Positions 1,092 through 14,915 of a stretch of DNA of 64,000 bases are shown here, one piece after another (the stretch's first letter is position 1; every line of letters starts with the position of its first letter). The notes below the pieces were generated by a model. That model did no database searches. It was given only the letters and a program-made list of their open reading frames with translations, and was not told where the DNA came from. A program made the position numbers and the translations under genes. Source of the DNA: Halobellus litoreus (GTDB lineage: Archaea > Halobacteriota > Halobacteria > Halobacteriales > Haloferacaceae); the NCBI RefSeq assembly GCF_024464595.1, contig NZ_JANHAW010000001.1:1257083-1321082 (forward strand), in the 5' to 3' direction.

Positions 1092-1868
1092 CTATGCTTC
1101 GTCGACGACCTCGGCGAAGCCGAACTTCGCCTTGACGTCGGTGACGCGGATCCGAACGGAATCGCCCGTCTCCGTCCCGGGGACGAACAGCGCGTAGCCG
1201 TCGATCTTGACGACGCCGTCGCCCTCGCTGCCGACGTCGTCGACGACGACGTCGAGTTCCTCGCCCTCGCGGACGGGTGCCGTGATCCGGTGTTTGCCGA
1301 CCAGATAGAGTTCCGAAGAGGAGTCCCTGGAGGCGTCCGGGCGGATCGAGCGGACGTACTCGAACTCCCGGTCGACGTCTTCGCGGAGGTCGTCGAGGTC
1401 CTGGCCGTCGAACACCTTCGCGGCGAAGTCGCCGCCGGCCGGGAGGAGTTCGAGCGCGACCTCAAGGGCCTGGCGGGCGAGATGGACCGAGCGAGCGTGA
1501 TCCAGCGAGTACTCGCCGGTCATATTCGGCGCCATATCGGAGATCACGACGTCCGCGCCGTCGTCGCCGATTTTCTCCTTCAGTTCGGCTTTGGTGTCCT
1601 CCTCGGTCATATCGCCGCGGATCGTCTCGACGTTGTCGTGCTCTAGGTCGCGGATCCGCTGGAAGTCGACGCCGACGACGGTTCCGCGGTCGCCGACGGC
1701 CTCGGCGGCCACCTGCAGCCACCCGCCGGGGGCGGCCCCGAGGTCGACGACGGTGTTCCCGGGACCGAACAGGCCCGCAGCCTCGTCGAGTTGCTTCAGT
1801 TTGTACGCCGAGCGGGCGCGGTAGCCCTCCTGTTTGGCCTTGTTGTAGTAGTGGTCCTTTCGTGTCAT
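1092..1868 (-). CDS. rlmE: 23S rRNA 2'-O-ribose methyltransferase RlmE (FtsJ/RrmJ) with TRAM domain
   Basis: 258 residues. The SAM-binding motif VVDLGAAPGGW lies at about 40-50. The catalytic K-D-K-E tetrad can be placed at about K23, D111 (SDMAPN), K151 (KVFDGQD) and E186 (SELYLVGK), as in RrmJ, which methylates the 2'-OH of a uridine in the peptidyl-transferase region of 23S rRNA. Residues from about 197 to the end (APVREGEELDVVVDDVG onward) form a TRAM RNA-binding domain, an extension common in haloarchaeal members and absent from the bacterial enzyme. Convergent with the transporter gene. Confidence 0.95.
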   Translation of the reverse strand: MTRKDHYYNKAKQEGYRARSAYKLKQLDEAAGLFGPGNTVVDLGAAPGGWLQVAAEAVGDRGTVVGVDFQRIRDLEHDNVETIRGDMTEEDTKAELKEKIGDDGADVVISDMAPNMTGEYSLDHARSVHLARQALEVALELLPAGGDFAAKVFDGQDLDDLREDVDREFEYVRSIRPDASRDSSSELYLVGKHRITAPVREGEELDVVVDDVGSEGDGVVKIDGYALFVPGTETGDSVRIRVTDVKAKFGFAEVVDEA

Positions 1869-2250
1869 ACGGTCCTCACTGAATCGGCTGCCGTGTTCCG
1901 CGGGGAAACAGCCGGCGAATTCGCGTTCATATCGATAGAAAGGAGGTTGAGTCGGAAATGGATGCCGAATTCAGGGGCGTCTTCGAGAGGGACGCCATCG
2001 AGGGAAGTGGGAATCCTCGCTGAGACCCGTTCGAGCCCGCGGTGACGGCAAAGTCGGCGAGTCGAAAGCATCGGATGCGGCTGTCGAGGCCCCCCGGGAT
2101 CTGAGAGCACGCCGAAGTCGTCCGTTCGTCGTCGTCGCACGTTCACCACCGGACGAATTGTTGAATCCGGGCAGAAACAGTCGCACTCTGGGAGCCCCAC
2201 GACTGCGGGAGTTCGGTACAATAAAGGGCGACTAAGTACGAACTCCGCAA
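1869..2250. other. Intergenic region with no recognisable gene
   Basis: 382 bases between the divergent rlmE and ccmE starts. Reading frames here give arginine- and serine-rich translations typical of non-coding GC-rich DNA. A weak TATA-like stretch (ACAATAAAGG near 2219-2228) lies about 28 bases upstream of the GTG start of ccmE and may be its promoter, which would make that transcript leaderless. Nothing else was recognised. Confidence 0.5.
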
Positions 2251-2631
2251 GTGCGCCGGAAGAACAAACTGCTCGTCACGACCGTCGGGATACTCATCCT
2301 CTTGACCACTCTCGGCGTGACGAGTATGAACGCCTCGGCCGCGTTCGTGTCGCCGACCCAGGTCTCCGAGTCGGATGGAGCGTATCAGGGCGATTGGGTC
2401 AATCTCGAGGGCGTCGTCACTGACCTCGACGCCGACGGAGCGGCGATCACCTTCGAGGTGACCGACGAGAACCACACCGTTCCGGTAGTGTACGAAGGGA
2501 CGTTACCCGACACACTTCAGGACGGCCGCGTCGTCGTCGCCAAAGGACAGTTCGACGGCGACCGACTGGTCGCGAACAAGCTCTCCGTCCGAGCACACGA
2601 AGGCGAGGAACGCCCCGAGAGCACTCGATGA
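2251..2631 (+). CDS. ccmE: CcmE-like haem chaperone (cytochrome c maturation)
   Basis: 126 residues, GTG start. One N-terminal membrane helix (about 7-30) is followed by an OB-fold region with the CcmE pattern (GDWVNLEGVVTDLD, ITFEVTDENHTVPVVYEGTLPD, GRVVVAKGQFD). CcmE carries haem outside the membrane between the CcmABCD export complex and CcmF. In the canonical protein a histidine (HxxxY) or, in archaeal variants, a cysteine (CxxxY) binds haem covalently. Here the aligned tail reads RAHEGEERPE: His116 matches the haem histidine but the tyrosine position is acidic. The stop overlaps the ccmA start (ATGA). Confidence 0.82.
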   Translation: MRRKNKLLVTTVGILILLTTLGVTSMNASAAFVSPTQVSESDGAYQGDWVNLEGVVTDLDADGAAITFEVTDENHTVPVVYEGTLPDTLQDGRVVVAKGQFDGDRLVANKLSVRAHEGEERPESTR

Positions 2632-3398
2632 CGCCAGAGGAGGAGGAGCGGTCGGGACCGGCCTCGGAACCGCCGGCCGTCGAAGTCGACGAGGTGACGA
2701 AATCCTACGGACACTTCACCGCCGTCGACCGCCTGTCGTTCGCGGTCGAGCACGGCTCGACGGTCGGGCTTTTCGGACCGAACGGCGCAGGGAAGACGAC
2801 GTTGCTTCGGATGATCGCCGGACTCGCGCGGCCGACCCGCGGGACCATCACGGTCGACGGCGTGCGACTCACCCCGGACGATTACACCGCCTACCGAACG
2901 ATGGGTATCGTCACCCACGAGACGATGCTGTACGACGAACTCACCGCTCGGGAGAATCTCAGATTCCACGCTGATCTCCACGGCGTCGACGACCCCACCG
3001 GCCGGTGTGCGTCGGTGCTCGAGACAGTCGGGTTATCCCACCGCGGGAGCGACCGGCCGAGGACGTTCTCACACGGGCTTCGAAAACGGCTGTCGCTCGC
3101 TCGAGCGCTGCTCCACGACCCCGACGTGCTGTTGCTCGACGAACCGTACACTGGACTCGACCAGCGCTCCGTCGCCGACCTCGAATCGGTCCTCGACGGG
3201 TTCGACGACCGGACAGTCCTCCTGACGACGCACGACCTCGAACGCGGTGTCGCCCGCTGCGACAGGGCGATCGTCGTCGACCACGGCCGACTCGAGGCGG
3301 ACCTCGTGCTCGACGACGGGACGTCGTTCGCCGCGACGTATCGCCGGATACTGGGCGTCGACTCCGAGTCGGAACGCGCGGGGGAACGAGCAGGATGA
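2628..3398 (+). CDS. ccmA: CcmA-like haem exporter ATP-binding protein
   Basis: 256-residue ABC ATPase. Walker A is GPNGAGKTT (about 50-58), Walker B VLLLDEP (about 167-173), with an H-loop at TTHD. The signature is unusual (FSHGLRKRLSLARAL instead of LSGGQ), as in other CcmA-type subunits. It starts inside the last codons of ccmE and is followed 19 bases later by ccmB, so ccmE-ccmA-ccmB form one operon. CcmA powers the CcmABCD complex that releases haem-loaded CcmE. Sequence alone would allow a generic ABC ATPase; the neighbours decide the call. Confidence 0.85.
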   Translation: MTPEEEERSGPASEPPAVEVDEVTKSYGHFTAVDRLSFAVEHGSTVGLFGPNGAGKTTLLRMIAGLARPTRGTITVDGVRLTPDDYTAYRTMGIVTHETMLYDELTARENLRFHADLHGVDDPTGRCASVLETVGLSHRGSDRPRTFSHGLRKRLSLARALLHDPDVLLLDEPYTGLDQRSVADLESVLDGFDDRTVLLTTHDLERGVARCDRAIVVDHGRLEADLVLDDGTSFAATYRRILGVDSESERAGERAG

Positions 3399-3417
3399 CC
3401 ACCATCGAACCAGTCCG

Positions 3418-4092
3418 ATGAAGGCGTTTCTCCGCGCGGTGTACCGGGTCTTCAGGAAGGATCTCCGGATCGAACAGCGGACGAAGCAAGTGACGACGAC
3501 CGTCGCCGTCTTCGCGCTGCTCGTCGTGCTCGTGTTCGCGTTCAGTTTCGTCCAGACGCTCCAGAGTTCGGCGCTGCTCGGACGCGGTGCACTTTGGGTC
3601 GCCTTCGTGTTCGCCGGGACGTTCGGCGTCACGAAGACGACCGAACTCGAAGACCGAAACGGGGCGCTCGATGGCCTGCTGATCGCCCCGGTGGACCGCT
3701 CGGCGATCTACCTCGGGAAAGTGCTCAGCACGGCGGCGTTCGTTTTCGCGGTGAGTCTGGTGACGTTGGGCGCGACTGCGGTCTTTCTCGGCTACAGTCC
3801 GTCGATGCCGACGGCGGTCTCTGTCGTGGCCGTGCTCCTCGTCACCGCCGTCGGATTTTCCGCTATCGGCGTCGTCGTCTCGGTTCTGACGTTTCGATCG
3901 GGCCTCGGCGAACTCGCGCTGCCGGTCCTCCTCGTGCCGCTCGTCGTGCCGCTACTCTTAGCCGGGGTCGAGCTCACCGCGGCGCTCGAAAGCGGCGCGC
4001 CGCTCGGTGGTTGGCTCCGACTCCTTGGGCTGTACACCGGAATCGTGCTACTCGCTGGCGTCGCGACGTTCGAGTACGTCGTCGAAGAGTGA
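3418..4092 (+). CDS. ccmB: CcmB-like haem exporter permease
   Basis: 224 residues with about six membrane helices. The start MKAFLRAVYRVFRKDLRIEQR and the segment FAGTFGVTKTTELEDRNGALDGLLIAPVDR, read in parts, are typical of CcmB, the membrane subunit of the cytochrome c maturation ABC complex. The ATG at 3418 is used because the characteristic cytoplasmic N-terminus begins there; the longer upstream frame overlaps ccmA and is not protein-like. Last gene of the ccmEAB operon; it converges with the halocyanin gene 36 bases away. Confidence 0.88.
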   Translation: MKAFLRAVYRVFRKDLRIEQRTKQVTTTVAVFALLVVLVFAFSFVQTLQSSALLGRGALWVAFVFAGTFGVTKTTELEDRNGALDGLLIAPVDRSAIYLGKVLSTAAFVFAVSLVTLGATAVFLGYSPSMPTAVSVVAVLLVTAVGFSAIGVVVSVLTFRSGLGELALPVLLVPLVVPLLLAGVELTAALESGAPLGGWLRLLGLYTGIVLLAGVATFEYVVEE

Positions 4093-4128
4093 CAACGGGG
4101 GCGACGCCCGGGAGGGGCATTCGTCAGA

Positions 4129-4842
4129 TCACTCGGCCTTCGCCGGCGGTTCCGCGGAGTCGGTCTGCTTGAGAAGGAGGAACACACCGAAGAAGACCGG
4201 AGAGAGCAGTCCGAGCGCGAGGATGGTGACGAACGTTGCGTTCTCGAAGGATATCGGCGTCCCCGATCCCTCGGATCCACCGCCCGATTCGCCGCCGCTG
4301 CCGCCACCGCCGCTGTCCCCACCGCCGCTGGCTTCGAGAAGCGGCTGTTCGACCTGGCTCGAATCGAGGCCGCCGCTGCCGCCGACGACGACTGCTCCGA
4401 GCATTCCGAGGGACTGGTGCGGAGCGCAGTAGTACGTGTACGTTCCCTCGCTCTCGAAGGTGTGTTCGAACGTCTCGCCAGGAGCGCTGTAGAGTTCGCT
4501 CTCGAAGCTGCCGTCCTCGGCGACGACGTTATGGCTGTTCCCCTCGCCGGTCCACTCCCAGACGACGGTGGTTCCGGGGTCGACCCGAATCGCCGCGGGG
4601 CCGAAGCCGTAGTACCCGCCGTTGGCCTCGGAGCCGACTGCGACGGTCACCTCCGATTGGCCGGTGTAGTCGTAGGTTCCTTCGTAGTTGGAAACGCCGT
4701 CGAACCAGCCGCCGTAATCCGGCTCCGATTGGGCGGTCGCGGTGCCGCTGGCGAGGCCACTCGTGGCTGCCGCGCCGAGTCCGATCGCGGTCCGGCGCAG
4801 GAACGCTCGTCGGTCGGTCGATCTCTTGGGTTGCTCTGACAT
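4129..4842 (-). CDS. Halocyanin (membrane-anchored blue copper protein)
   Basis: 237 residues. A twin-arginine signal (RRAFLRRTAIGLGAAA, from about 11) directs Tat export. The plastocyanin-like domain shows type-1 copper ligands His104 (NSHNVV), Cys139, His142 (YYCAPH) and Met147 (GMLG). A Gly/Ser-rich linker (about 170-200) leads to a C-terminal membrane helix (about 208-228), so the copper domain sits on the outer face tethered at its C-terminus. Halocyanins are mobile electron carriers. It is last in an operon with a di-haem cytochrome, ccdA, ccmC and ccmD, which suggests it accepts electrons from that cytochrome. Confidence 0.93.
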   Translation of the reverse strand: MSEQPKRSTDRRAFLRRTAIGLGAAATSGLASGTATAQSEPDYGGWFDGVSNYEGTYDYTGQSEVTVAVGSEANGGYYGFGPAAIRVDPGTTVVWEWTGEGNSHNVVAEDGSFESELYSAPGETFEHTFESEGTYTYYCAPHQSLGMLGAVVVGGSGGLDSSQVEQPLLEASGGGDSGGGGSGGESGGGSEGSGTPISFENATFVTILALGLLSPVFFGVFLLLKQTDSAEPPAKAE

Positions 4843-4924
4843 TGTGTGTCGGTCGTGAATCGTCTGTGTTCTCGGTCGGTGTCGAATACGATCGATCGGC
4901 GGTGTATCGCCCGTCTGTTCGGTC

Positions 4925-5044
4925 TTACGCCTGTGCGTCTTCGAGTCGCCGTTCGAGCCGCGCCATCCGACGCTGCAGATACGTCACGTATCCGAAAAAC
5001 GCGACGAAGAGCGCGGAGTAGCCAGCCAGGAGTAGTGGTTCCAT
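4925..5044 (-). CDS. ccmD: CcmD-like small membrane protein
   Basis: 39 residues. A single membrane helix (LLLAGYSALFVAFFGYVTY) is followed by a basic, coiled tail (LQRRMARLERRLEDAQA). This is the layout of CcmD, the small subunit that joins CcmC and CcmE in the haem-delivery complex. The start at 5044 lies 2 bases after the ccmC stop, so it is coupled to ccmC. Such proteins are poorly conserved in sequence; size, topology and position carry the call. A larger in-frame reading upstream is antisense-like and overlaps ccmC. Confidence 0.85.
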   Translation of the reverse strand: MEPLLLAGYSALFVAFFGYVTYLQRRMARLERRLEDAQA

Positions 5045-5046
5045 CG

Positions 5047-5826
5047 TTATCGCCTCCGTGAGAGCTGTGCTCTGCGAACGTGCTGTTCGAGTTCGTGGAT
5101 GCGGATCCGAATGCCTAGGAGGTAGAGATAGAGGAAGGTTGCCGCGACGAGCGTCACGACGAGCGTCAGCGGGTCGATGTTCGCGCTGACGCCGCTGTTT
5201 CCGATCGTGGTCTCGTGGAACGTCGGCGTCCAGAGCCGCGTGGATGCGTACGAAAGCGGCACGGTCACGAACCCGACGACCCCGTAGACCGCCGCGTACC
5301 GGTCGCCCGACTGAGCCTCGGTCGCGGAGTAGACCACGAGATAACCGGCGTAGATGAACCACACGATCAGGAACGTCACCAGCCTGACGTCGGTCCACTC
5401 CCACCAGGAGTTCCAGATGACCCGCCCCCACGCGCTGCCGAGGAGCAGCGTCAGCGTCGCAAAGAGAAAACCCAGTTCACCGGAACTGTGGGCCAGCCGG
5501 CTCCAGAACGGACCTCGGTAGCGCAGATACAGCGCGCTGCCGACGAACGTCGACCCGAGCGCGGCCGCGGCGACCCACGCGAGCGAGATGTGCCAGTACG
5601 CGAGGAGGTTCGCGCCGTGTTCGATGCCGTACATCGTGTCCGACGCGACCCCGAAGATCAGGAGCATCGAGAGTAGTCCGAAGCCGAACGCGCCCCACGC
5701 GACGAACCGACTTCCTGTCACGCGGTGGAGAAACGCCGTGACCGTGGCGAGAATCCGGGCGAACCGAACGTTGCTGCTTCTGCTCCCGCGAGCGTCCCCG
5801 TCGTCCGTCGATGAGCTACCGTTCAT
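5047..5826 (-). CDS. ccmC: CcmC-type haem handling protein (cytochrome c assembly)
   Basis: 259 residues, about six membrane helices. The tryptophan-rich WWD motif reads WGRVIWNSWWEWTD at about 133-146. Two histidines flank it in the expected places (about His79 in YWHIS and His204 in PTFHE), which would ligand haem on the outer side. CcmC loads haem onto CcmE. It sits between ccdA and ccmD with gaps of 2 to 4 bases, so the four genes form one operon. A Ser/Asp/Arg-rich N-terminal extension of about 30 residues is haloarchaeal in character. Confidence 0.92.
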   Translation of the reverse strand: MNGSSSTDDGDARGSRSSNVRFARILATVTAFLHRVTGSRFVAWGAFGFGLLSMLLIFGVASDTMYGIEHGANLLAYWHISLAWVAAAALGSTFVGSALYLRYRGPFWSRLAHSSGELGFLFATLTLLLGSAWGRVIWNSWWEWTDVRLVTFLIVWFIYAGYLVVYSATEAQSGDRYAAVYGVVGFVTVPLSYASTRLWTPTFHETTIGNSGVSANIDPLTLVVTLVAATFLYLYLLGIRIRIHELEQHVRRAQLSRRR

Positions 5827-5830
5827 ACTG

Positions 5831-6523
5831 TTAGAGCCAAGTCGTTACCGATGCGAGTGCAAGTTTGTCGAACCCGAAGAGCACGGCGATCCCGAGCGCG
5901 ATGAGCGCGTAGCCGGTCGCCGTCCGGAACGATTCTGTCGACGCGCCGCTCGCGACCGAGTCGAACAGCCGACTGCTGCCGGCCTGTCCGAGGTACGCGA
6001 CGCCCAAGAGCGGAATCGAAAAGCCGGCCCCGTACGTCGCCAACAGCCGAGCGCTGCCGACGACGTCCGAAGTCGTCCCGACGTACGCCAAGACGCCACC
6101 GAGGACGGGGCCGACACAGGGGAGCCAGATGACGCCTAGGAGCAGCCCTACCGCGAACGCGTTGCCCAGCGGATAGGCCTCCTCGTCGACGCGGTTGGAA
6201 AGCCGCGATGCCCGTCCGGCGAGGCGGGAGGCGTACCGCGAGTAGACCTCGTTGAGGTCGTCGTCGGCCATCACAGCCCCGAACGCCAGCATCAGGATGG
6301 CGAACGGCGCACGGACGGTGTCAGGCGTCACCGAGCCGATCATCCCGGTCAGGACACCGAGGGCGGTGAACGTCACCGTGCTCCCGACGACGATGGCGAC
6401 CGGCCGCAACCGGTGGCCGTTCGCGCCAACGACGAGGACGGGAATCATCGGAAGACAACACGGAGTCAGAATCGTCAATACCCCCGCGAGAAAGACGGTG
6501 ACGGCGGTCGGGTCAGTTATCAT
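5831..6523 (-). CDS. ccdA: CcdA/DsbD-type thiol reductant transporter
   Basis: 230 residues with about six membrane helices. The redox cysteines appear in the two expected membrane motifs: LTPCCLP (Cys22/23) and LPCVGP (Cys136). CcdA moves electrons from cytoplasmic thioredoxin across the membrane to reduce extracellular thiols, keeping apocytochrome CxxCH cysteines reduced for haem attachment. The likely acceptor is the membrane-anchored thioredoxin encoded at 8144. Located 24 bases after the di-haem cytochrome and 4 bases before ccmC. Confidence 0.92.
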   Translation of the reverse strand: MITDPTAVTVFLAGVLTILTPCCLPMIPVLVVGANGHRLRPVAIVVGSTVTFTALGVLTGMIGSVTPDTVRAPFAILMLAFGAVMADDDLNEVYSRYASRLAGRASRLSNRVDEEAYPLGNAFAVGLLLGVIWLPCVGPVLGGVLAYVGTTSDVVGSARLLATYGAGFSIPLLGVAYLGQAGSSRLFDSVASGASTESFRTATGYALIALGIAVLFGFDKLALASVTTWL

Positions 6524-6547
6524 TCGATACTGATCGTTGTGGAGTCG

Positions 6548-7915
6548 TTAGCTCGCGGTCTCGCTCGTGGATTGCTCGGTTGCCAAGGCGGTCGTGACCG
6601 CGTCCTGTGCGGTCACCGACGACTGGTTCGCGGCGTCTTCGCTCGTCGAGTTGTCGACGTCCTCGTAGGTCCGGATCCACGTCGTCTCCCAGGACCCGTC
6701 GACGGACTCGTTCCGAAGCGGCTGGTCGTACCGTTCGACGTTGTCGGGGATCACGCTCTCGTCGATCTCCGAATCGTCGATCGGGATGTCTGCGAGCATG
6801 AGCTTCTTCGTCATCGGGTTCATCTCGTACCCGAGACGCTGCTGCGTGCGGTTGTAGTAGACCGCTTCGTCCGGCGCACCGGCGGCCGCCCAGTCCTTGG
6901 GCTGTCGCGGCAGGTGCGGCCGCTTGTGCGCGTTCATAAATCCGGCGACGTCCTGGACGTCTTCCCAGTCGGAGAACGTGTGCGCTGCGCCGTAGGGCAT
7001 CGCCTCGCGGGTGAAGCCGGCGGACGTGTAGACGCGACCCATTCCGGCCCCGTCGTTGAACGAGTCCGCACCCCAAAGCGGTGGGTACTGGCCCTCGATC
7101 CCCTGCCCGTCTGCACCGTGACAGGAGGCGCAGTTCTCAAGGTACAGTTCGGCCCCGCGGACCGGGTTGATCTCCGAGACCGGGACTTTCTCGTCGCCCT
7201 CGGGCTTTTCGATGTGCCGCCAGTAGGGGACCGTCTCGCTCGGCGTTCCCTTGTTCAGCCAGACCATGTACGACTCCATCGCTTGGATCTCGCGGCTGTC
7301 GTACGCGGGGACGCCCTCTTCGGACCCCGGTGAGTTCATACTCCGGAGGAAACAGCCCATAATCCGCTGGCGCATATCCCGCATCCGCTGGGTTCGGCCG
7401 GTCCACTCCGGATAGCCGGCCGCGGTCCCGACGAGCGGGATCATATCGATGTCCTGCCCGACCATACCGGTCGTCGTGGGGAGATCGCCCCCGCCGTGGC
7501 AGTTCGCACACGAGAGGTCGTTTCCGACGTGTTCGGGCATCTCGTTGGACGTGTTCGCGAAGATCGCACGTCCCTCACGGATAAGCTCCCGCCGGTTTTC
7601 GTTCTCCGGGAGCGTCGAGTTGTTCATCTTCTTGGGAACGAAATTCACCTCCTCGCCGGCGGTCGCGTTCTTGTACTGGAACTCCTGTTCGCGCAGGTCT
7701 TCGCTGTACCACTTGCTGCCGTTCCACGTGCCAGGGAGGTCACGAACCTCGCCACCGCCAGCGCTGGCTGCCGGCGCGTCCCCCGGGCCACCGAGGAACG
7801 CGACCGCGCCGTTGATGGCGAATACGACGACGATCGCCGCGAAGACCGTCCCGAAGACGAGCAGGACGGGTTTGAGTAAGAGCGTCGAGTCGCTCTTACT
7901 CATGTAGTTGCCCAC
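6548..7915 (-). CDS. Membrane-anchored di-haem cytochrome c, TsdA (thiosulfate dehydrogenase)-like
   Basis: 455 residues. One N-terminal membrane anchor (about 12-40) precedes two haem c sites: CANCH (136-140) and CASCH (262-266). Family features of TsdA are present: GRAIFANTSN before haem 1, RIMGCFLRSMN with Cys188 where TsdA has its unusual axial cysteine, SREIQAMESYMVWL, YPPLWGADSFNDGAGM after haem 2, and Met306 (EAMPYG) as a candidate ligand of haem 2. TsdA joins two thiosulfates to tetrathionate or runs in reverse. First gene of the operon with ccdA, ccmC, ccmD and halocyanin. A second in-frame ATG at 7903 is possible. Activity is inferred from family features only. Confidence 0.85.
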   Translation of the reverse strand: MGNYMSKSDSTLLLKPVLLVFGTVFAAIVVVFAINGAVAFLGGPGDAPAASAGGGEVRDLPGTWNGSKWYSEDLREQEFQYKNATAGEEVNFVPKKMNNSTLPENENRRELIREGRAIFANTSNEMPEHVGNDLSCANCHGGGDLPTTTGMVGQDIDMIPLVGTAAGYPEWTGRTQRMRDMRQRIMGCFLRSMNSPGSEEGVPAYDSREIQAMESYMVWLNKGTPSETVPYWRHIEKPEGDEKVPVSEINPVRGAELYLENCASCHGADGQGIEGQYPPLWGADSFNDGAGMGRVYTSAGFTREAMPYGAAHTFSDWEDVQDVAGFMNAHKRPHLPRQPKDWAAAGAPDEAVYYNRTQQRLGYEMNPMTKKLMLADIPIDDSEIDESVIPDNVERYDQPLRNESVDGSWETTWIRTYEDVDNSTSEDAANQSSVTAQDAVTTALATEQSTSETAS

Positions 7916-8143
7916 CTAGCAGTTAGATAGTCTATCATTTCATATCTCCCTCTACGGTATCGTGTTTCCGAATGAAAAATAGATAGATAATAAAGCTTCT
8001 CTTCTACACAACTGCTGCGGGTCAGTTTTTGTTTTCGATAGACAGCACTCACTAAATATTGTTTTATTGATTCATTTTTGCACTCGACCACTGGATCGAC
8101 GACGGTAGGTTTTACTGTCACAGTCTAATAGCCGGGACTATCG
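7916..8143. promoter_or_regulatory. AT-rich divergent promoter region of the cytochrome c maturation island
   Basis: 228 bases between the divergent cytochrome and thioredoxin starts, strikingly AT-rich for this genome. It contains a perfect palindrome GATAGTCTATC (7926-7936) close to the cytochrome start, further GATAG-type boxes near 7980 and 8037, and ATAG...CTAT just before the thioredoxin ATG (about 8129-8141). The two arms would drive the tsdA-like operon leftward and the ccmF operon rightward. Control by a shared regulator is an inference. Confidence 0.6.
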
Positions 8144-8707
8144 ATGAATCCACGAAAGGCGATGACGATCGCCTTCTTCGCCGCACTGCTCGGAATCGGG
8201 TACGTCTCGATGAACGCGGCGCCCGTTCTCTCCGGAGAAGGATACTCCTACCACGGAGAGACGCGATGGCAGACCGATTACGCCGACGCCGTCGAAACAG
8301 CCGCCGCCGAAGACGAGCCGGTCGTGATCTACTTCTGGACGACCTGGTGTACCTACTGTGAGGACTACAATCAGAACCACTACAGCGACCCGGCGGTGCG
8401 ATCGGAACTCGACGAGTTCACGAAGGTAGCGGTGAACTTGGACAGCGACGCCGAGGCCGACGCGCGACTGCAGCAGCGGTACAACGTCAACTACCCGCCG
8501 CAGCACGTCGTCGTGACGCCCGAGGGCGACGTGCTCACGCGGATCCCCGGCTACGCCTCACCCGAGGATTTCCTCACGTACCTGGAGACGGCCAGAGAAC
8601 GCTACCAGTCCGGCACGACAACCGATAACGGGTCGGCGACAGCCGCCGCCGGACCGACATCGACGCCCAGAACCGAATCGGAGCCGACCACGGAGGTCGC
8701 ACAGTGA
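8144..8707 (+). CDS. Membrane-anchored thioredoxin-fold protein (CcmG/ResA-like)
   Basis: 187 residues. An N-terminal hydrophobic anchor (about 7-28) is followed by a thioredoxin fold with active site WCTYC (Cys69, Cys72) and the cis-proline segment NYPPQHVVV. The C-terminal 35 residues are Ser/Thr/Ala-rich and probably extended. In the ccm context it would reduce the CxxCH cysteines of apocytochromes (CcmG/ResA role), being re-reduced by CcdA. Its stop overlaps the GTG start of ccmF by 4 bases. Confidence 0.88.
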   Translation: MNPRKAMTIAFFAALLGIGYVSMNAAPVLSGEGYSYHGETRWQTDYADAVETAAAEDEPVVIYFWTTWCTYCEDYNQNHYSDPAVRSELDEFTKVAVNLDSDAEADARLQQRYNVNYPPQHVVVTPEGDVLTRIPGYASPEDFLTYLETARERYQSGTTTDNGSATAAAGPTSTPRTESEPTTEVAQ

Positions 8708-11154
8708 ACCCCGGGACGATCCTGCTGGCGCTCGCGTTCCTCGCCGGACTGTCGAGTACGGGCCTTCTCACGCGGGCGTACCTCCTCGACGACGACCGGT
8801 ACCTCTCGTACGTCCCAAAACTGACCGCGGGAACGGCGGTCCTCCTGGTCGCGGCGCTGTCGCATCTCACCTACCAGTTCGTGCGTCTCGACTACTCGAA
8901 CGCGTACGTGTGGGAGAACACCGCCGCGTACCTCTCGGTGCTCTACCGCGTGACGGGCGTGTACGCGGCCAACGAGGGATCGGTGCTCCTGTGGGCCTCG
9001 ATCGTCGCCGTCGTCGCGCTGGTCGCCGGCGTGACGCGGGGCTTCCCGACGCGACGCGGAAAACTCGTCCACGCGCTCACCGTCGGCGTCGTGACGTACT
9101 TCTCGGCGATGCTGTTGCTGCAGAGCCCGTTCGCCTCGGTCCGAACGGCGTTCCCCAACGCGCCTCCGGGGTTCACGCCGACGAGCGGCCAAGGACTGAA
9201 CCCACTCCTCGTCGATCCGTATATGGCGATCCACCCGCCGGTGATGTTCATCTCCTACGCGCTGCTGACGATGCCGTTCGCCATCGGGGCCGCACACTTC
9301 ATCGCGCTGTTCCGCGGCGACGACGGACTCTTCTCGGCGTGGGTCGGCAGCGTGATCCGCTGGCTCCGACTCGGATGGCTGTTTCTCACCGCCGCCGTCG
9401 CGCTGGGCGGACTCTGGTCGTACACGGTACTCGGCTGGGGCGGGATCTGGGCGTGGGACCCCGTCGAGACGGCCATCCTGGTCCCGTGGCTGTTCCTGAC
9501 GGCGACGTTGCACGCGGTCACGAACTACCGACCGGGCGGACGGTACCGGATCCTCGCGCCCGCGATGACCGCCAGCGTGTTCGCGCTGGCCGTGTACACG
9601 ACGTCGGTGGTCCGCAGCGGCGTCTTCCGAAGCATCCACTCGTTCGCCGACGGCGGGATCGGCGCGTCGTTCCTCGTGTTGATGGGCGTGACAACTCTCC
9701 TCGGCGTCGTGCTGCCGCTCGCCTACTGGATGGTGACCGAGGAGAACAGCGGCGGCACTGTCGCTCCCGAATCGACCGAAGGGGGCCGTCTCGACGCGTG
9801 GGTCACCCGATCGAACCTGCTGCATCTCGCCGTCCTCCTCTTCGGACTGCTCACCTTCGTTTCGCTGTGGGGGCTCTCGTTCCCGCTGCTCCGGAGCGCG
9901 ATGACGGGCCTCGAGGTGTCGGTCGAATCGCGCTACTACAACCTGTGGAGTTTCCCGCTCGTCCTCGCGGTGTTGCTCCTCCTCGGTTTCTATATGGACT
10001 ACGACCGGGAGGGCCTCCGACGGAGCCTCGCCGGACTCGCGGTGTTCGGCCTCGCGACGCTCGTCGGTGCCGCTGTCGCGCCGTCGGAAACCTGGCGGTT
10101 GGCGTCCGCGCGCCCAGGGGACGCGTTCATCTATCAGGTCATCGGCAACGCGAGCGCGCTCTCGGTGCTGCCACCCGTGGCGTACGCGATTCTCGGGACA
10201 GTCAAACGAACGGGGCAGCGGATCGCCGCGACGACGAGCCGTGATGCAAAACTGAAAGAGACCGGAATCACGCTGATTCACGTCGGCGCCGCGCTGCTCG
10301 TGCTCTCGCTACCGTTTATGTATCTCTTCGCCGGACAGGCGTCGGTGATGGCGACCGGGGTCGCGGCCGGCGCGGTCGACACGTCCCAACGCGACGTCGG
10401 GACGTCTTCGTACGACGTCCGCGTGCTCGGGTACGAGCGGACCGAGTTCCCGACCGACCCCGAACCGGGGACGTACGCGCTCTCCTCCTCGCAGGTTCTC
10501 ACACGCGGACAGTCGCTGAATACGTCGGTACAGACCGTTCACGGGACGGTGACCGCGATACGCGAGGGGCCACAGGCGACGGTGGTGCAACTGGACGACT
10601 CCCAGGTGTGGATCGGCGTCGCGGGCAACGGAACGGTGGGTCTCGAAACCGGCCAATCGGTCGTCGCCCGCGGACAGGTGATGTGGGAGTTCGTCCCGAC
10701 GGCTGACGCCATCGTCCTCGCCGGGCCGGAAACCGTCGGTCCCGCCGACGACCCGCCGGACGCGGCCGTTCCGACCCGGGTGATCGCCACCGGCGTGTCG
10801 CTCGCGGTGTACGACGATACCGGTCTCGTCGTCTCCGGCGTCGCCGGCCAGCGAGAGTATCCCGAGCAGGGCGGACTCCAGGTCAGAGACGTCCTGATCG
10901 ATCGGGGACTGTTCGTCGACACGTACGTCATCGCCGGCGTGAGCGACGGAACCGCCTCGATGTCCGTCAAGCGGATTCCGTTCGTGACCCTGATGCGGGC
11001 GAGTATCGCGGCGCTCCTCCTCGGGATGTTGCTCGTGATCGTCTTCGACCCGCGACACGGCGTTCGAACGAACTCGATCGTCGGTTCCAGCGACTCGACT
11101 GCAGCGACGACTCGCGATCGTCAGGAAGGCGTGAGGGAGGTTTCGGACCAATGA
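8704..11154 (+). CDS. ccmF: CcmF-type cytochrome c haem lyase
   Basis: 816 residues, longer than typical CcmF (about 650), GTG start overlapping the thioredoxin stop. It has about 14 membrane helices and the WWD motif GWGGIWAWDPVETA at about 242-255, with conserved flanking stretches YAANEGSVLLWAS and LVDPYMAIHPPVMF carrying candidate haem-ligand histidines. A large extracytoplasmic domain (about 560-760, containing SSYDVRVLGYER) follows, then a final helix. CcmF takes haem from CcmE and attaches it to apocytochrome. No ccmH or ccmI gene is next to it; the extra C-terminal domain might replace part of that function. Confidence 0.92.
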   Translation: MNPGTILLALAFLAGLSSTGLLTRAYLLDDDRYLSYVPKLTAGTAVLLVAALSHLTYQFVRLDYSNAYVWENTAAYLSVLYRVTGVYAANEGSVLLWASIVAVVALVAGVTRGFPTRRGKLVHALTVGVVTYFSAMLLLQSPFASVRTAFPNAPPGFTPTSGQGLNPLLVDPYMAIHPPVMFISYALLTMPFAIGAAHFIALFRGDDGLFSAWVGSVIRWLRLGWLFLTAAVALGGLWSYTVLGWGGIWAWDPVETAILVPWLFLTATLHAVTNYRPGGRYRILAPAMTASVFALAVYTTSVVRSGVFRSIHSFADGGIGASFLVLMGVTTLLGVVLPLAYWMVTEENSGGTVAPESTEGGRLDAWVTRSNLLHLAVLLFGLLTFVSLWGLSFPLLRSAMTGLEVSVESRYYNLWSFPLVLAVLLLLGFYMDYDREGLRRSLAGLAVFGLATLVGAAVAPSETWRLASARPGDAFIYQVIGNASALSVLPPVAYAILGTVKRTGQRIAATTSRDAKLKETGITLIHVGAALLVLSLPFMYLFAGQASVMATGVAAGAVDTSQRDVGTSSYDVRVLGYERTEFPTDPEPGTYALSSSQVLTRGQSLNTSVQTVHGTVTAIREGPQATVVQLDDSQVWIGVAGNGTVGLETGQSVVARGQVMWEFVPTADAIVLAGPETVGPADDPPDAAVPTRVIATGVSLAVYDDTGLVVSGVAGQREYPEQGGLQVRDVLIDRGLFVDTYVIAGVSDGTASMSVKRIPFVTLMRASIAALLLGMLLVIVFDPRHGVRTNSIVGSSDSTAATTRDRQEGVREVSDQ

Positions 11155-12371
11155 GACGGCTGTTCGCGCTGCTCGTCGTCGTCAGCGCACTCGCGTTCGT
11201 TCCCGTCGCCAGCGCGACGACGACGGTCGGCGGGACGGTCACCGTCGACGACGGGAGCGCAGACGGCGCGACCGTCGAGGTCGTCCCGCTCAGCGAGCAA
11301 CGGCAGCGAGCGGACGACGCAGTGACCACGACCGTCGAGGACTCGTCCTTCTCGGTCGACGCGCCGGACGCGCCGGCGTATGCCGTGCGCGTCGAGCACG
11401 GCGGCACGACACACTACGAGGTGCTGCAGAACCGCACGCAGGTCGAATTCGAACTGTCCGAGCGGTTCGCCGGGCGGGTCGTCGACGACGATGGGGAAGC
11501 GGAGCCGGGCGCTGTCGTCGAACTGATCGACGAGAACGAGTACGTCGTCGGCACGCGACGCACGAACGAGACGGGCGCGTTCGCGTTCGGCCCGCTGGAA
11601 TCCGACGAGACGTACGAGCTCCGTACCACGGTCGGGAACGCGGCGTATCGGCGGACGATCGATCCGTCGACGACACGGAACGTGACGGTTACGGCGCTGC
11701 AGCCGACGAACGACACGTCGGTACTCGGTGTCGCGAACCGGACGCCGACCGGCCACGTCGTCCAGATCGTGCCGCCGGGGAACGAATCGGACGCGCCGAG
11801 CGTCATCGAGACGATCGCGTTCGAGAACCCGAGCGACCGACCGTTCGTCGGGACCGTGACGATCGGAACGCCCGCCGACGCGTCGGCGTACGCGGCGATG
11901 GTCGACGGCTCGGGGGCGGAGTATCGACAGACAGAAGCGGGCGTCGAATTGAACGTCAGCGTCCCCGCGAACGGAAGCACGCAGGTGGGCGCGGCCTACG
12001 ATCTCACCGGGACGCAGTTCCGGAAAGAGATCCGACGGGACACGACCTCTCTCGCGGTCGTGCTCCAGGGTTACGATCCGTCCCGGGTGAGCCACTCGGC
12101 GAACCTCCGGGTCGGATCGGCACCGATCCCGCTGCTCACCACGAACGAGTCGCTGGACGCAGGCGCGACCATCAGCGCCGACGTCGCCGGCGCTCGGAGG
12201 ACCACCGCGGAGTCGACGGCGGGAACCAACTCGGAGACAGGGGCCGTGGAGACGTCCTCCTCCGGGAGCGGGTCGATCCCGGCCTTCCCCGGCGTCCCGA
12301 TACTCGCCGGCATCTTCGGAACGGTCTTCGTCGGCCTCGGCGCGTACCGACTGACCCGACCGGAACCCTGA
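11151..12371 (+). CDS. Secreted, C-terminally anchored protein with carboxypeptidase-regulatory-like domain
   Basis: 406 residues. A signal peptide (about 1-20, ending ASA) precedes beta-rich segments: GGTVTVDDGSADGATVEVVPL and a second repeat GRVVDDDGEAEPGAVVELID resemble carboxypeptidase-regulatory-like (beta-sandwich) domains. A third beta-rich part (about 190-330) follows, then a Ser/Thr linker and a C-terminal membrane helix (FPGVPILAGIFGTVFVGLGAY). It overlaps ccmF by 4 bases (ATGA), so it is made with the haem lyase. No CxxC or CxxCH is present. A scaffold for ccmF or the apocytochrome is a guess; the molecular role is unknown. Confidence 0.78.
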   Translation: MRRLFALLVVVSALAFVPVASATTTVGGTVTVDDGSADGATVEVVPLSEQRQRADDAVTTTVEDSSFSVDAPDAPAYAVRVEHGGTTHYEVLQNRTQVEFELSERFAGRVVDDDGEAEPGAVVELIDENEYVVGTRRTNETGAFAFGPLESDETYELRTTVGNAAYRRTIDPSTTRNVTVTALQPTNDTSVLGVANRTPTGHVVQIVPPGNESDAPSVIETIAFENPSDRPFVGTVTIGTPADASAYAAMVDGSGAEYRQTEAGVELNVSVPANGSTQVGAAYDLTGTQFRKEIRRDTTSLAVVLQGYDPSRVSHSANLRVGSAPIPLLTTNESLDAGATISADVAGARRTTAESTAGTNSETGAVETSSSGSGSIPAFPGVPILAGIFGTVFVGLGAYRLTRPEP

Positions 12372-12614
12372 CGTCGAGTCACCGCGACGTCGCTGACCGG
12401 AGCGTCGGTGGTGTTGACCACGGTGACGGTCACACGATCTGCATCGGGGTATGTTCCACACTCGTCGATCGGGGGTGCCGGCGTCGGTCACGCGCCGAGG
12501 GTTTGCGTCACGAACGACCGCCGGATCCGGACCCGTTCGCGCGCGTCCGCCCCCGCAGAAACACACAACCGAATCGGGTGCCTTTTTATCACATCCCGGC
12601 CAATCCCTCCCTAT
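12372..12614 (-). pseudogene. Possible remnant of an exported-protein gene
   Basis: On the minus strand, about 12372-12480 reads as a protein-like stretch ([20 protein letters not shown], then PVSDVAVT) resembling the beta-strands of a secreted haloarchaeal protein. It has no start codon and continues downstream into the antisense of the preceding gene. It may be a fragment left by rearrangement, or chance. The remaining bases hold the PCNA promoter. Confidence 0.25.
12583..12590 (+). promoter_or_regulatory. TATA box of the PCNA gene
   Basis: TTTTTATC centred about 28 bases before the PCNA ATG. This spacing places transcription initiation at or within a few bases of the start codon, the leaderless arrangement usual in haloarchaea. 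Confidence 0.7.
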
Positions 12615-13358
12615 ATGTTCAAGGCCATCGTGAGCGCGTCTACGCTCCAGGACGCGCTCGACTCGGTGAGCGTGCTGGTCGACGAGTGCAAGATCCGACT
12701 GAACGAGGACGAACTGTCGATTCGCGCCGTCGATCCCGCGAACGTCGGTATGGTCGATCTCTCGCTCGATGCCGCCGCCTTCGAATCCTACGAGGCCGAC
12801 GGGGGCGTCATCGGCGTCAACCTCGCGAAACTCGAAGACTTCGTCGGGATGGCCTCGGGGGACGAACTCGTCGAACTCGAACTCGACGAGGAGACCCGGA
12901 AGCTGAACATCCGGATGGACGGCCTCTCCTCGACGCTCGCGCTGATCGACCCCGACTCCATCCGTCAGGAGCCGGACATCCCCGACCTCGACCTGGCGGC
13001 CGAGATCGTCCTCGAAGGCGCCCAGTTGGACCGCGGGATCAAGGCCGCCGACATGGTGTCGGACCACGTCCGCCTCCGCGTCGACGCCGACGACGAGGCC
13101 TTCCACATCGAGGCCGAGGGCGACACCGACGACGTCGACTTCGAACTCGACGCCGACGACCTCATCGCGCTCACGGCCGGTACGGCCGACTCGCTGTTCT
13201 CGCTGGACTACCTGAAGGACATGAACAAGGCGATCCCGAAGGACGCCGAGGTCACCGTCGAACTCGGCGAGGAGTTCCCGGTCAAGATCCACTACGCGGT
13301 CGCCGAGGGGCAGGGCAACGTCACGTACATGCTCGCGCCGCGCATCCAGAGCGACTAG
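12615..13358 (+). CDS. pcn: DNA polymerase sliding clamp PCNA
   Basis: 247 residues, the normal length for the archaeal clamp. The ATG at 12615 begins [20 protein letters not shown], the typical PCNA N-terminus; the longer upstream frame is not protein-like. The interdomain region and C-terminus ([20 protein letters not shown], then LAPRIQSD) match the family. It forms a homotrimeric ring that tethers DNA polymerase, FEN1 and ligase. Strongly acidic, as expected for a halophile. Other replication genes nearby are priL, hjc, rfcS and mcm. Confidence 0.97.
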
Positions 13359-13382: not shown

Positions 13383-14915
13383 TCACACCCGAACGGGCCG
13401 TCTGTGCCATCCCGTCGCGCCGCTCGGACGGGGCGAACTCCGCTCCTCGGTCTGGACGGTGCCGTCCCGGGTGATCGCGCGGACGACGACCTCGAACTCC
13501 GAGCGGTTCGGCGCGTCGAACGCGTACCGCCAGCGCCGCCACGCGTGGGGCGCGATCGGCGACTCCAACTCGGCCTCGGTCCACGTGTCGCCGCCGTCGA
13601 CGCTGACCTCGACGGCCGCGATCTCCTCGACGCCGGTCGCTAACCCACCGAACGCGACTCCCCCGACGACGACGCGATCGCCGTCGCGTTCGACGCCGCG
13701 GACGTACGACATCGTGTTGACGACGGCCTCCTCGTCCCATCCGCGCGCCTCCCAGTAGGCCTCGTGGTCGGCGGCCGAGACCTCGATTCGCGTGATCCAC
13801 TTGGTCATCTTCATCCCGTAGCGGCCGGGGACGAGCAACCGGGCCGGAAAGCCGTGTTCCGTCGCGAGCGGCTCCGACCCCATCCGATAGGCGATCAGGA
13901 TGTCCTCGCGCTCGACGATGTCGAGCGGGATCGCCTCGCTGTACCCGTCGGCGGCGTGGGTGACGACGTCGACCGCCTCGGCGGCGGGGTCGGCGTCGGC
14001 CACCAGGTCCGACAGTTGGACGCCCGTCCAGCGGGGCGTCCCGATGAGGTCGCCGCCGACGGTGTTCGAGACGCAGACCATCGTCGTGACCTGTTCGACG
14101 CTCGCGTCGTGCTCGCGAAGTTCGTCGTACGAGAGGCTGTAGGGTCGCTCGACCGCACCGTCGACGTCGAGCGTCCACGACGCCGGATCGAGATCCGGCG
14201 GTCGGATGTTGATGTCGACGACGTAGTGGTCCTCCGGGGCCGTGACCGCCGCCGGCATCCCCTCGAAGTCGAACCGAGGATCGCCGGGGGTGGCAACCGG
14301 CGATGCTTCTCCGGCGGCGTCGGTGCCGCCGTCGGAACCGCCCGCATCGACGCCGTCCACGTCGCCGCCGCGACCGCGCCCGCCAGCGAGTCGGTCGAAC
14401 GCCGCGCGCACGCCGAGGAGCGACCCCGTCCCGACGACCGCGACCGCGCCGATCCGTCGAAGGAACCGGCGGCGGTCGGGCGATCGGCGGGTCGTCGGCG
14501 TCGAGAGCAGGCGACTCGCGATGTACGCCGGCACGACGGCGACGACGACGCCGAGGACCGCGCTCGGCGAGAGGGGAACCCCGGCGGCGAGAAAGACGGC
14601 TACGGTCGCGCCCACGGCCAGAAAACCCGCCAGGAACGGCGTCTCCGCTCGAACGCGCGGCCAGACGGCACCCCCGATCGCCGAGAGGGCGACGATCCCG
14701 ACGAGCACCGATGCCAACAACACCGGCTTCGCGGAGAACCCCAAGAGGCCGACCGCTAAGGTCGACAGCCACCCCGGCGAGCGGACGATGATCCCCTCCG
14801 CGAGGGCGACGGGAGCGAATCCCCCGACGAGCGGTGCAGCGAGGTACAGTCCGGCGAGCCACACGGTGCCGACGACGGCACCGACCGTCCCGCGTCGAAC
14901 GGTCGTCGAACGCAT
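13383..14915 (-). CDS. Sulfite-oxidase-family molybdopterin oxidoreductase fused to membrane domain
   Basis: 510 residues. Residues 1-140 contain four membrane helices. An internal twin-arginine-like motif (RRRFLRRIGAVAVVG, about 148-162) plus hydrophobic stretch follows, then a Gly/Asp linker. The molybdopterin domain (about 225-390) has the cofactor cysteine in TMVCVSNTVGGD (Cys281) and the family stretch PARLLVPGRYGMKMTKWI. A dimerisation-type Ig-like domain ends the protein. The enzyme should act on the outer face of the membrane. Family members oxidise sulfite or reduce sulfoxides or nitrate; the substrate here is not readable. Convergent with pcn. Confidence 0.88.
   Translation of the reverse strand: MRSTTVRRGTVGAVVGTVWLAGLYLAAPLVGGFAPVALAEGIIVRSPGWLSTLAVGLLGFSAKPVLLASVLVGIVALSAIGGAVWPRVRAETPFLAGFLAVGATVAVFLAAGVPLSPSAVLGVVVAVVPAYIASRLLSTPTTRRSPDRRRFLRRIGAVAVVGTGSLLGVRAAFDRLAGGRGRGGDVDGVDAGGSDGGTDAAGEASPVATPGDPRFDFEGMPAAVTAPEDHYVVDINIRPPDLDPASWTLDVDGAVERPYSLSYDELREHDASVEQVTTMVCVSNTVGGDLIGTPRWTGVQLSDLVADADPAAEAVDVVTHAADGYSEAIPLDIVEREDILIAYRMGSEPLATEHGFPARLLVPGRYGMKMTKWITRIEVSAADHEAYWEARGWDEEAVVNTMSYVRGVERDGDRVVVGGVAFGGLATGVEEIAAVEVSVDGGDTWTEAELESPIAPHAWRRWRYAFDAPNRSEFEVVVRAITRDGTVQTEERSSPRPSGATGWHRRPVRV

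Follow-up and report, generated by a model that had tools for sequence, protein, structure and literature searches.

The entry for cluster 28 in the survey of Kletzin et al. 2015 describes archaeal homologues of thiosulfate dehydrogenase (TDH, TsdA) together with cytochrome c maturation (CCM) genes in five haloarchaea, and suggests horizontal transfer (PMC4429474). In the TsdA of Allochromatium vinosum, haem 1 is ligated by His53/Cys96 and haem 2 by His164 with Lys208/Met209, and the C. jejuni enzyme has Asn/Met at the Lys208/Met209 positions (PMC6879331). With regard to the maturation machinery, a 2022 study of Methanosarcina gave CXXXY as the universal motif of archaeal CcmE and CcmD as absent in archaea (PMC9084895), and a 2011 review assigned a Cys to every archaeal CcmE (PMC3601427). 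The attachment of haem in archaea without CcmH is an open question on which the haloarchaeal CCM bears.

The haloarchaeal (Halobellus) block of ~10 kb analysed here is almost certainly a member of the TDH-CCM kind of Kletzin et al. 2015, a kind that is already known. It is interpreted here as a transferable cassette serving a single client cytochrome, and a probability of about 0.75 was assigned to the proposed mechanism as a whole.

Organisation of the locus

The window, meaning the whole stretch of 64,000 nucleotides that was analysed, belongs to a haloarchaeal genome of 3.86 Mb, 99.9% complete, which among named species is closest to Halobellus rarus, rufus and inordinatus. Positions 2251-12371 hold ccmEAB, a halocyanin gene, ccmD, ccmC, ccdA, the gene of a di-haem cytochrome, a CcmG-like thioredoxin gene, ccmF, and the gene of a protein referred to as p11151. 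The System I genes for CcmA, B, C, E and F are all present by family models. The genes named in the earlier note were all found where it had placed them, each matching its family model (Pfam/TIGRFAM-type profiles), and its total of ten becomes eleven once p11151 is counted. Strand and spacing suggest three transcription units, namely ccmE-ccmA-ccmB (plus strand), cytochrome-ccdA-ccmC-ccmD-halocyanin (minus strand) and thioredoxin-ccmF-p11151 (plus strand). The features are as follows.

1092-1868, minus strand: rlmE (FtsJ + TRAM; Pfam), backbone gene at the left edge, adjoining pcn in congeners without the block
1932-12612, no strand: inserted segment, delimited by blastn against the empty sites of G218 and G288
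2251-2631, plus strand: ccmE, haem chaperone, GTG start (PF03100, 9e-16); invariant His116 at 2596-2598, no CxxxY/HxxxY
2628-3398, plus strand: ccmA, ABC ATPase (TIGR01189, 131.2 bits against a cut-off of 131.6)
3418-4092, plus strand: ccmB, ABC permease (PF03379, 4e-24)
4129-4842, minus strand: halocyanin (TIGR03102, above cut-off), with a twin-Arg leader
4925-5053, minus strand: ccmD family, 42 aa (TIGR04391, CcmD_alt_fam, above cut-off), beside ccmC in nearly all loci
5047-5826, minus strand: ccmC, WWD protein (PF01578, 4e-20), WWD and His conserved
5831-6523, minus strand: ccdA, thiol-electron conduit (DsbD_TM/CcdA, PF02683, 5e-20)
6548-7915, minus strand: TsdA-family di-haem cytochrome c (PF00034 and SoxA-TsdA PF21342; PDB TsdA, E 1e-38)
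8144-8707, plus strand: CcmG-like membrane thioredoxin with WCTYC (PF13098, 1e-13)
8704-11154, plus strand: ccmF, haem lyase (PF01578, 3e-25, and CcmF_C)
11151-12371, plus strand: p11151, with a predicted signal peptide, all-beta domains and C-terminal TM anchor; sub-threshold CarboxypepD_reg match only
12612-13358, plus strand: pcn (PCNA; Pfam), backbone gene at the right edge; empty-site homology starts at 12613

The client cytochrome

The cytochrome carries two CxxCH haem sites, CANCH (7496-7510) and CASCH (7118-7132), with SoxA/TsdA-type and cytochrome c domains, and its description as TsdA-like was borne out by alignment to TsdA in the PDB (E ~1e-38 over residues 103-339). Cys188 (7352-7354) aligned to the Cys ligand of TsdA haem 1, within the RI..CF.RS.N motif that surrounds this ligand, and would be the distal ligand of haem 1. 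Met306 (6998-7000) occupies the position of the haem-2 Met, and C136, C139, H140, C188, C262, C265, H266 and M306 were kept in at least 95% of 36 relatives. As the residue preceding the haem-2 Met is not Lys, a stable, permanent His/Met haem 2 is expected, as in C. jejuni. At the N-terminus the Halobellus protein has a hydrophobic anchor, and several relatives have a lipobox-like leader there. Since the relatives begin near 'MSxxDS', the ATG at 7903, four codons downstream, is probably the start, and likelier than the GTG at 7915.

The earlier note saw the block as a self-contained module for extracellular electron transfer; in the multihaem sense such transfer would be conjecture. The fit to the family points to thiosulfate/tetrathionate chemistry on the outer face of the membrane, and family membership and residue conservation suggest a role in thiosulfate metabolism, with thiosulfate as the putative substrate. 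Homology to TsdA does not fix the direction of the reaction, or even the substrate. The cytochrome might use a different substrate, whether a sulfur compound or some other redox compound, or might be mainly a tetrathionate reductase at the end of an anaerobic respiratory chain and not a thiosulfate oxidase. TsdA enzymes run in both directions between thiosulfate and tetrathionate (PMC6879331), the protein extends past the TsdA-aligned stretch at both ends, with an added N-terminal region and a long C-terminal portion, and a literature search turned up neither activity nor haem data for any haloarchaeal member. However, the Cys ligand, the surrounding motif and the haem-2 Met were all retained, and a His/Met haem 2 would have a high potential that favours oxidation, so this alternative is considered unlikely.

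A genome-wide pattern scan for CxxCH codons gave 85 sites, followed by translation around them. No convincing second client was found among the ORFs scanned, in agreement with the idea of a single dedicated assembly line with one client. This result applies to standard CxxCH sites, the only ones detectable; for two of the scanned ORFs (L158 and L171) Pfam returned no family, and the scan covered most but not all of the CxxCH ORFs, leaving out several. Kletzin et al. suspect that non-standard haem sites occur in haloarchaea (PMC4429474). The other CxxCH ORFs scanned belonged to the radical SAM, DsbH/DUF255 thioredoxin, alcohol dehydrogenase, topoisomerase zinc ribbon, phosphoribosyltransferase or zinc-finger families, or were overlapped by longer ORFs; those with high GC3 and acidic translations were zinc, radical-SAM or thioredoxin-like proteins. 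The lack of ccmH, noticed earlier in the block, extends to the whole genome (best E 0.07, under the cut-off), and no CcmH over the cut-off was found in any of the 40 CcmF-bearing haloarchaea. With only one client in the block, thiosulfate oxidation by heterotrophic haloarchaea becomes open to experimental test.

Distribution and insertion site

Of 391 haloarchaeal genomes, 26 (in 14 of 86 genera) encode the TsdA-type cytochrome and 40 encode CcmF, and every one of the 26 TsdA-positive genomes was also CcmF-positive. Thirteen of the 14 CcmF carriers without TsdA have a protein with two CxxCH sites, belonging to one sequence cluster and encoded beside thioredoxin and ccmF; the one representative tested was a MauG-type peroxidase. 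Multihaem cytochromes were found in the remaining carrier (G346), so there are at least two types of client for the haloarchaeal CCM. The G346 locus (L090, G346:C1:2694001-2714000, positions 1289-8836), from a haloarchaeon of another family, is a divergent ccm locus that includes an 8-CxxCH protein, a 4-CxxCH protein, a 4Fe-4S protein and NrfD. The 2015 survey by Kletzin et al., by contrast, gave no multihaem cytochromes for haloarchaea (PMC4429474).

The position of the block between rlmE and pcn had been taken to suggest insertion, and comparison of the locus in relatives upheld this, both by the patchy distribution of the block and by empty sites in several congeners. No gene separates rlmE from pcn in congeners G288, G218 and G126, and the same holds for the more distant G014 and G316. 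In blastn comparisons with G218 and G288, homology of the flanks ended near 1931 on the left and resumed at 12613 on the right, with ~135-155 bp of unaligned intergenic DNA in place of the block. The Halobellus carriers have the block at the same place, some of them with added DNA between ccmE and rlmE; between genera the flanking genes vary. The protein distances of the block genes correlate at 0.75-0.96. Taken from sequence comparison, the patchy distribution and the empty sites argue that the block is a transferable island. A vertically inherited, ordinary housekeeping cytochrome c system would also have a conserved gene set, and this is all that speaks for it; with only 26 of 391 genomes, empty sites inside the genus and variable flanks, the distribution already contradicts this explanation, which is extremely improbable. 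In a tree of the flanking genes, the block-free Halobellus G288 and G218 nest among carriers (support 86-91, deeper nodes being weak), and some of the empty sites may thus be secondary losses.

Other DNA occupies the rlmE-pcn or rlmE-ccmE interval in congeners (L199, 6535-11027, in G275; L004, 15.7-19.1 kb; L198, 6-15 kb), which suggests a hotspot for insertion. Adjoining pcn at 13383-14915 is a sulfite-oxidase-family (SorA/SoxC-like) gene, which was considered as a block member and then treated as backbone because it also lies by pcn in two block-free congeners. A distant relative of this gene occurs in the MauG-type ccm loci. To the left of the block, a queuosine-precursor transporter gene (TIGR00697, 360-1073) overlaps a ribbon-helix-helix gene (107-367).

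p11151 and the halocyanin

In a profile search, full-length matches to p11151 came from the 26 TsdA genomes and no others, and the sole further match was partial (38 bits). The ratio to TsdA was 1:1 for all 28 copies, including two copies each in G319 and G325, which have two TsdAs, and none of the 14 TsdA-less CcmF carriers has p11151. The protein gave no family model above threshold. It was modelled with all-beta domains and a C-terminal membrane helix (mean pLDDT 83), and a structure search recovered S-layer, pilin and other beta-sandwich proteins at low TM scores only, which indicates no more than the fold class.

The earlier note had proposed p11151 as a possible recogniser of the apocytochrome in the absence of CcmH. 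A replacement of CcmH/CcmI as apocytochrome-binding factor would accord with the fact that its gene immediately follows ccmF at nearly every TsdA-type locus and with its predicted extracytoplasmic position. However, the 14 CcmF carriers from which it is missing are themselves without CcmH, and in G021 it adjoins the cytochrome on a contig without ccmF or other ccm genes; it follows the TsdA client and not the CCM machinery. The modelled all-beta fold would resemble neither CcmI, which belongs to the TPR proteins, nor CcmH, which is small and helical. The role of CcmH substitute was rejected as the leading view on this distribution and is considered improbable. As p11151 tracks TsdA 1:1 and is absent from the other CCM carriers, it appears to partner the TsdA cytochrome structurally and not to stand in for CcmH in general; a chaperone function for the TsdA apocytochrome only is possible.

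The halocyanin retains the conserved type-1 copper ligands H104, C139, H142 and M147, and its domain scored over the TIGR03102 cut-off. Its proposed role as the carrier of the module is weakened as an obligate one, and the halocyanin was ruled out as an obligate partner, because its gene lies next to the block in no more than a subset of lineages, namely Halobellus, Halorussus/Halomicrococcus and a few others. It is an accessory in the family and a candidate electron acceptor in the lineages that have it.

CcmE, CcmD and CcmF

The tail His of CcmE was present in all 49 haloarchaeal rows of the alignment, which include a few same-species duplicates. Across these 49 rows the mature part is free of Cys (residue 23 is Cys in a single row) and position +4 from the tail His is never Tyr, so the motif is neither HxxxY nor CXXXY. 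An HxxxH form was seen in 10 of the 14 CcmEs of TsdA-less loci and in none of the 35 TsdA-type CcmEs. The tail His is likely to be equivalent to E. coli His130, although the ungapped PDB alignment places the two one position out of register. A CcmD-family protein above the curated cut-off follows ccmC, and homologues are nearly always present (47 other loci). The published archaeal universals, CXXXY in CcmE and the absence of CcmD, do not hold for haloarchaea. The HxxxH form was reportedly noted in two halobacteria by Allen et al. in 2006, and the CcmE exception may therefore be partly known already.

In CcmF, His177, His270, His312, His526 and the WWD segment were kept in at least 95% of 52 sequences. 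Its C-terminal extracytoplasmic domain was predicted at pLDDT 87, with Foldseek likeness to CcsBA and CcmF, and an OB-like part (about residues 604-684, 10513-10755) lies inside this modelled domain.

Shared and client-specific functions

The single-contig genome G037 carries both client types. Its TsdA locus contains ccdA, cytochrome, thioredoxin, ccmF and p11151, and its MauG-type locus contains the di-haem protein, thioredoxin, ccmF, ccmB, ccmA, ccmE, ccmD and ccmC, giving one CcmC, one CcmE and two CcmFs genome-wide. In the CcmF tree the MauG group forms one clade (100/100) and the two G037 CcmFs sort by client type, the copy at the TsdA locus being placed among TsdA-type CcmFs from another family (100/99). 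A second genome of that genus, G099, has client, thioredoxin and ccmF together, with ccmC and ccmE located about 1.1 Mb away. The simplest reading suggested by these two genomes, one complete with both clients and the other with the separation, is that CcmF and thioredoxin form a client-matched half and ccmABCDE a shared half for haem delivery. Alternatively, the pairing of CcmF with its client could simply reflect linkage through recent transfer and not function. A genome with two CcmF-thioredoxin pairs and a single CcmC/CcmE makes client recognition by CcmF directly testable, and Haloferax, for which the haloarchaeal entries of Kletzin et al. give no ccm genes (PMC4429474), would be a clean host for that reason.

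Every MauG-type ccm locus with ccmE also has a gene for a sulfite-oxidase-family molybdoprotein near ccmE (L076-L085, L087-L089), and this type of locus may represent a separate, conserved redox module.

Proposed mechanism and comparison with known systems

In the proposed mechanism, CcmABCD would load haem onto CcmE, probably at His116, and CcdA and the thioredoxin would hold the CxxCH cysteines of the apocytochrome reduced. CcmF would then attach both haems, without CcmH, to the membrane-anchored TsdA-family cytochrome at the cell exterior. The mature cytochrome would interconvert thiosulfate and tetrathionate at the His/Cys haem, and electrons would leave through the His/Met haem for an acceptor that is either a blue-copper protein or a respiratory component. 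The all-beta, membrane-anchored p11151 might serve at the surface as a dedicated structural partner, with CcmF and thioredoxin as the putative client-specific half and ccmABCDE as the shareable half. A further proposal is put forward tentatively, as possible and not as the expected outcome: haloarchaea might have a third form of System I, with a lone-His CcmE (no Tyr, Cys or partner His), CcmD kept and CcmH dispensed with, in which CcmF and thioredoxin are an interchangeable client module on a shared CcmABCDE and TsdA needs p11151.

The block shares CcmABCDEF, CcdA, a CcmG-like thioredoxin and the His in the CcmE tail with System I (Ccm) of E. coli, but it is without CcmH/I and its CcmE is without Tyr at +4. 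With System I* of Desulfovibrio and Methanosarcina it shares the lack of CcmH; unlike that system, it has His and not Cys in CcmE, and a CcmD-family protein and a CcmG-like thioredoxin are present. As in NrfEFG and other CcmF paralogues for one client, a CcmF-type lyase is assigned to a single cytochrome, whereas here the clients have ordinary CxxCH sites and CcmF is paired with a thioredoxin. The cytochrome resembles TsdA (A. vinosum 4v2k/4wq7; 5lo9) in its two c-type haem domains, haem-1 Cys position, haem-2 Met and RI..CF.RS.N motif, and differs in its membrane anchor or lipobox-like leader, its extra terminal regions, the residue before the haem-2 Met, and its linkage to p11151 and its own CCM. 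Compared with what the cluster 28 entry of Kletzin et al. 2015 describes for what is almost certainly the same type of module, the additions made here are the wider distribution (26 of 391 genomes), the strict link of p11151 to the cytochrome, the presence of CcmD, the CcmE motif, the insertion site, and the arrangement in a shared half and a client half with a client-matched CcmF.
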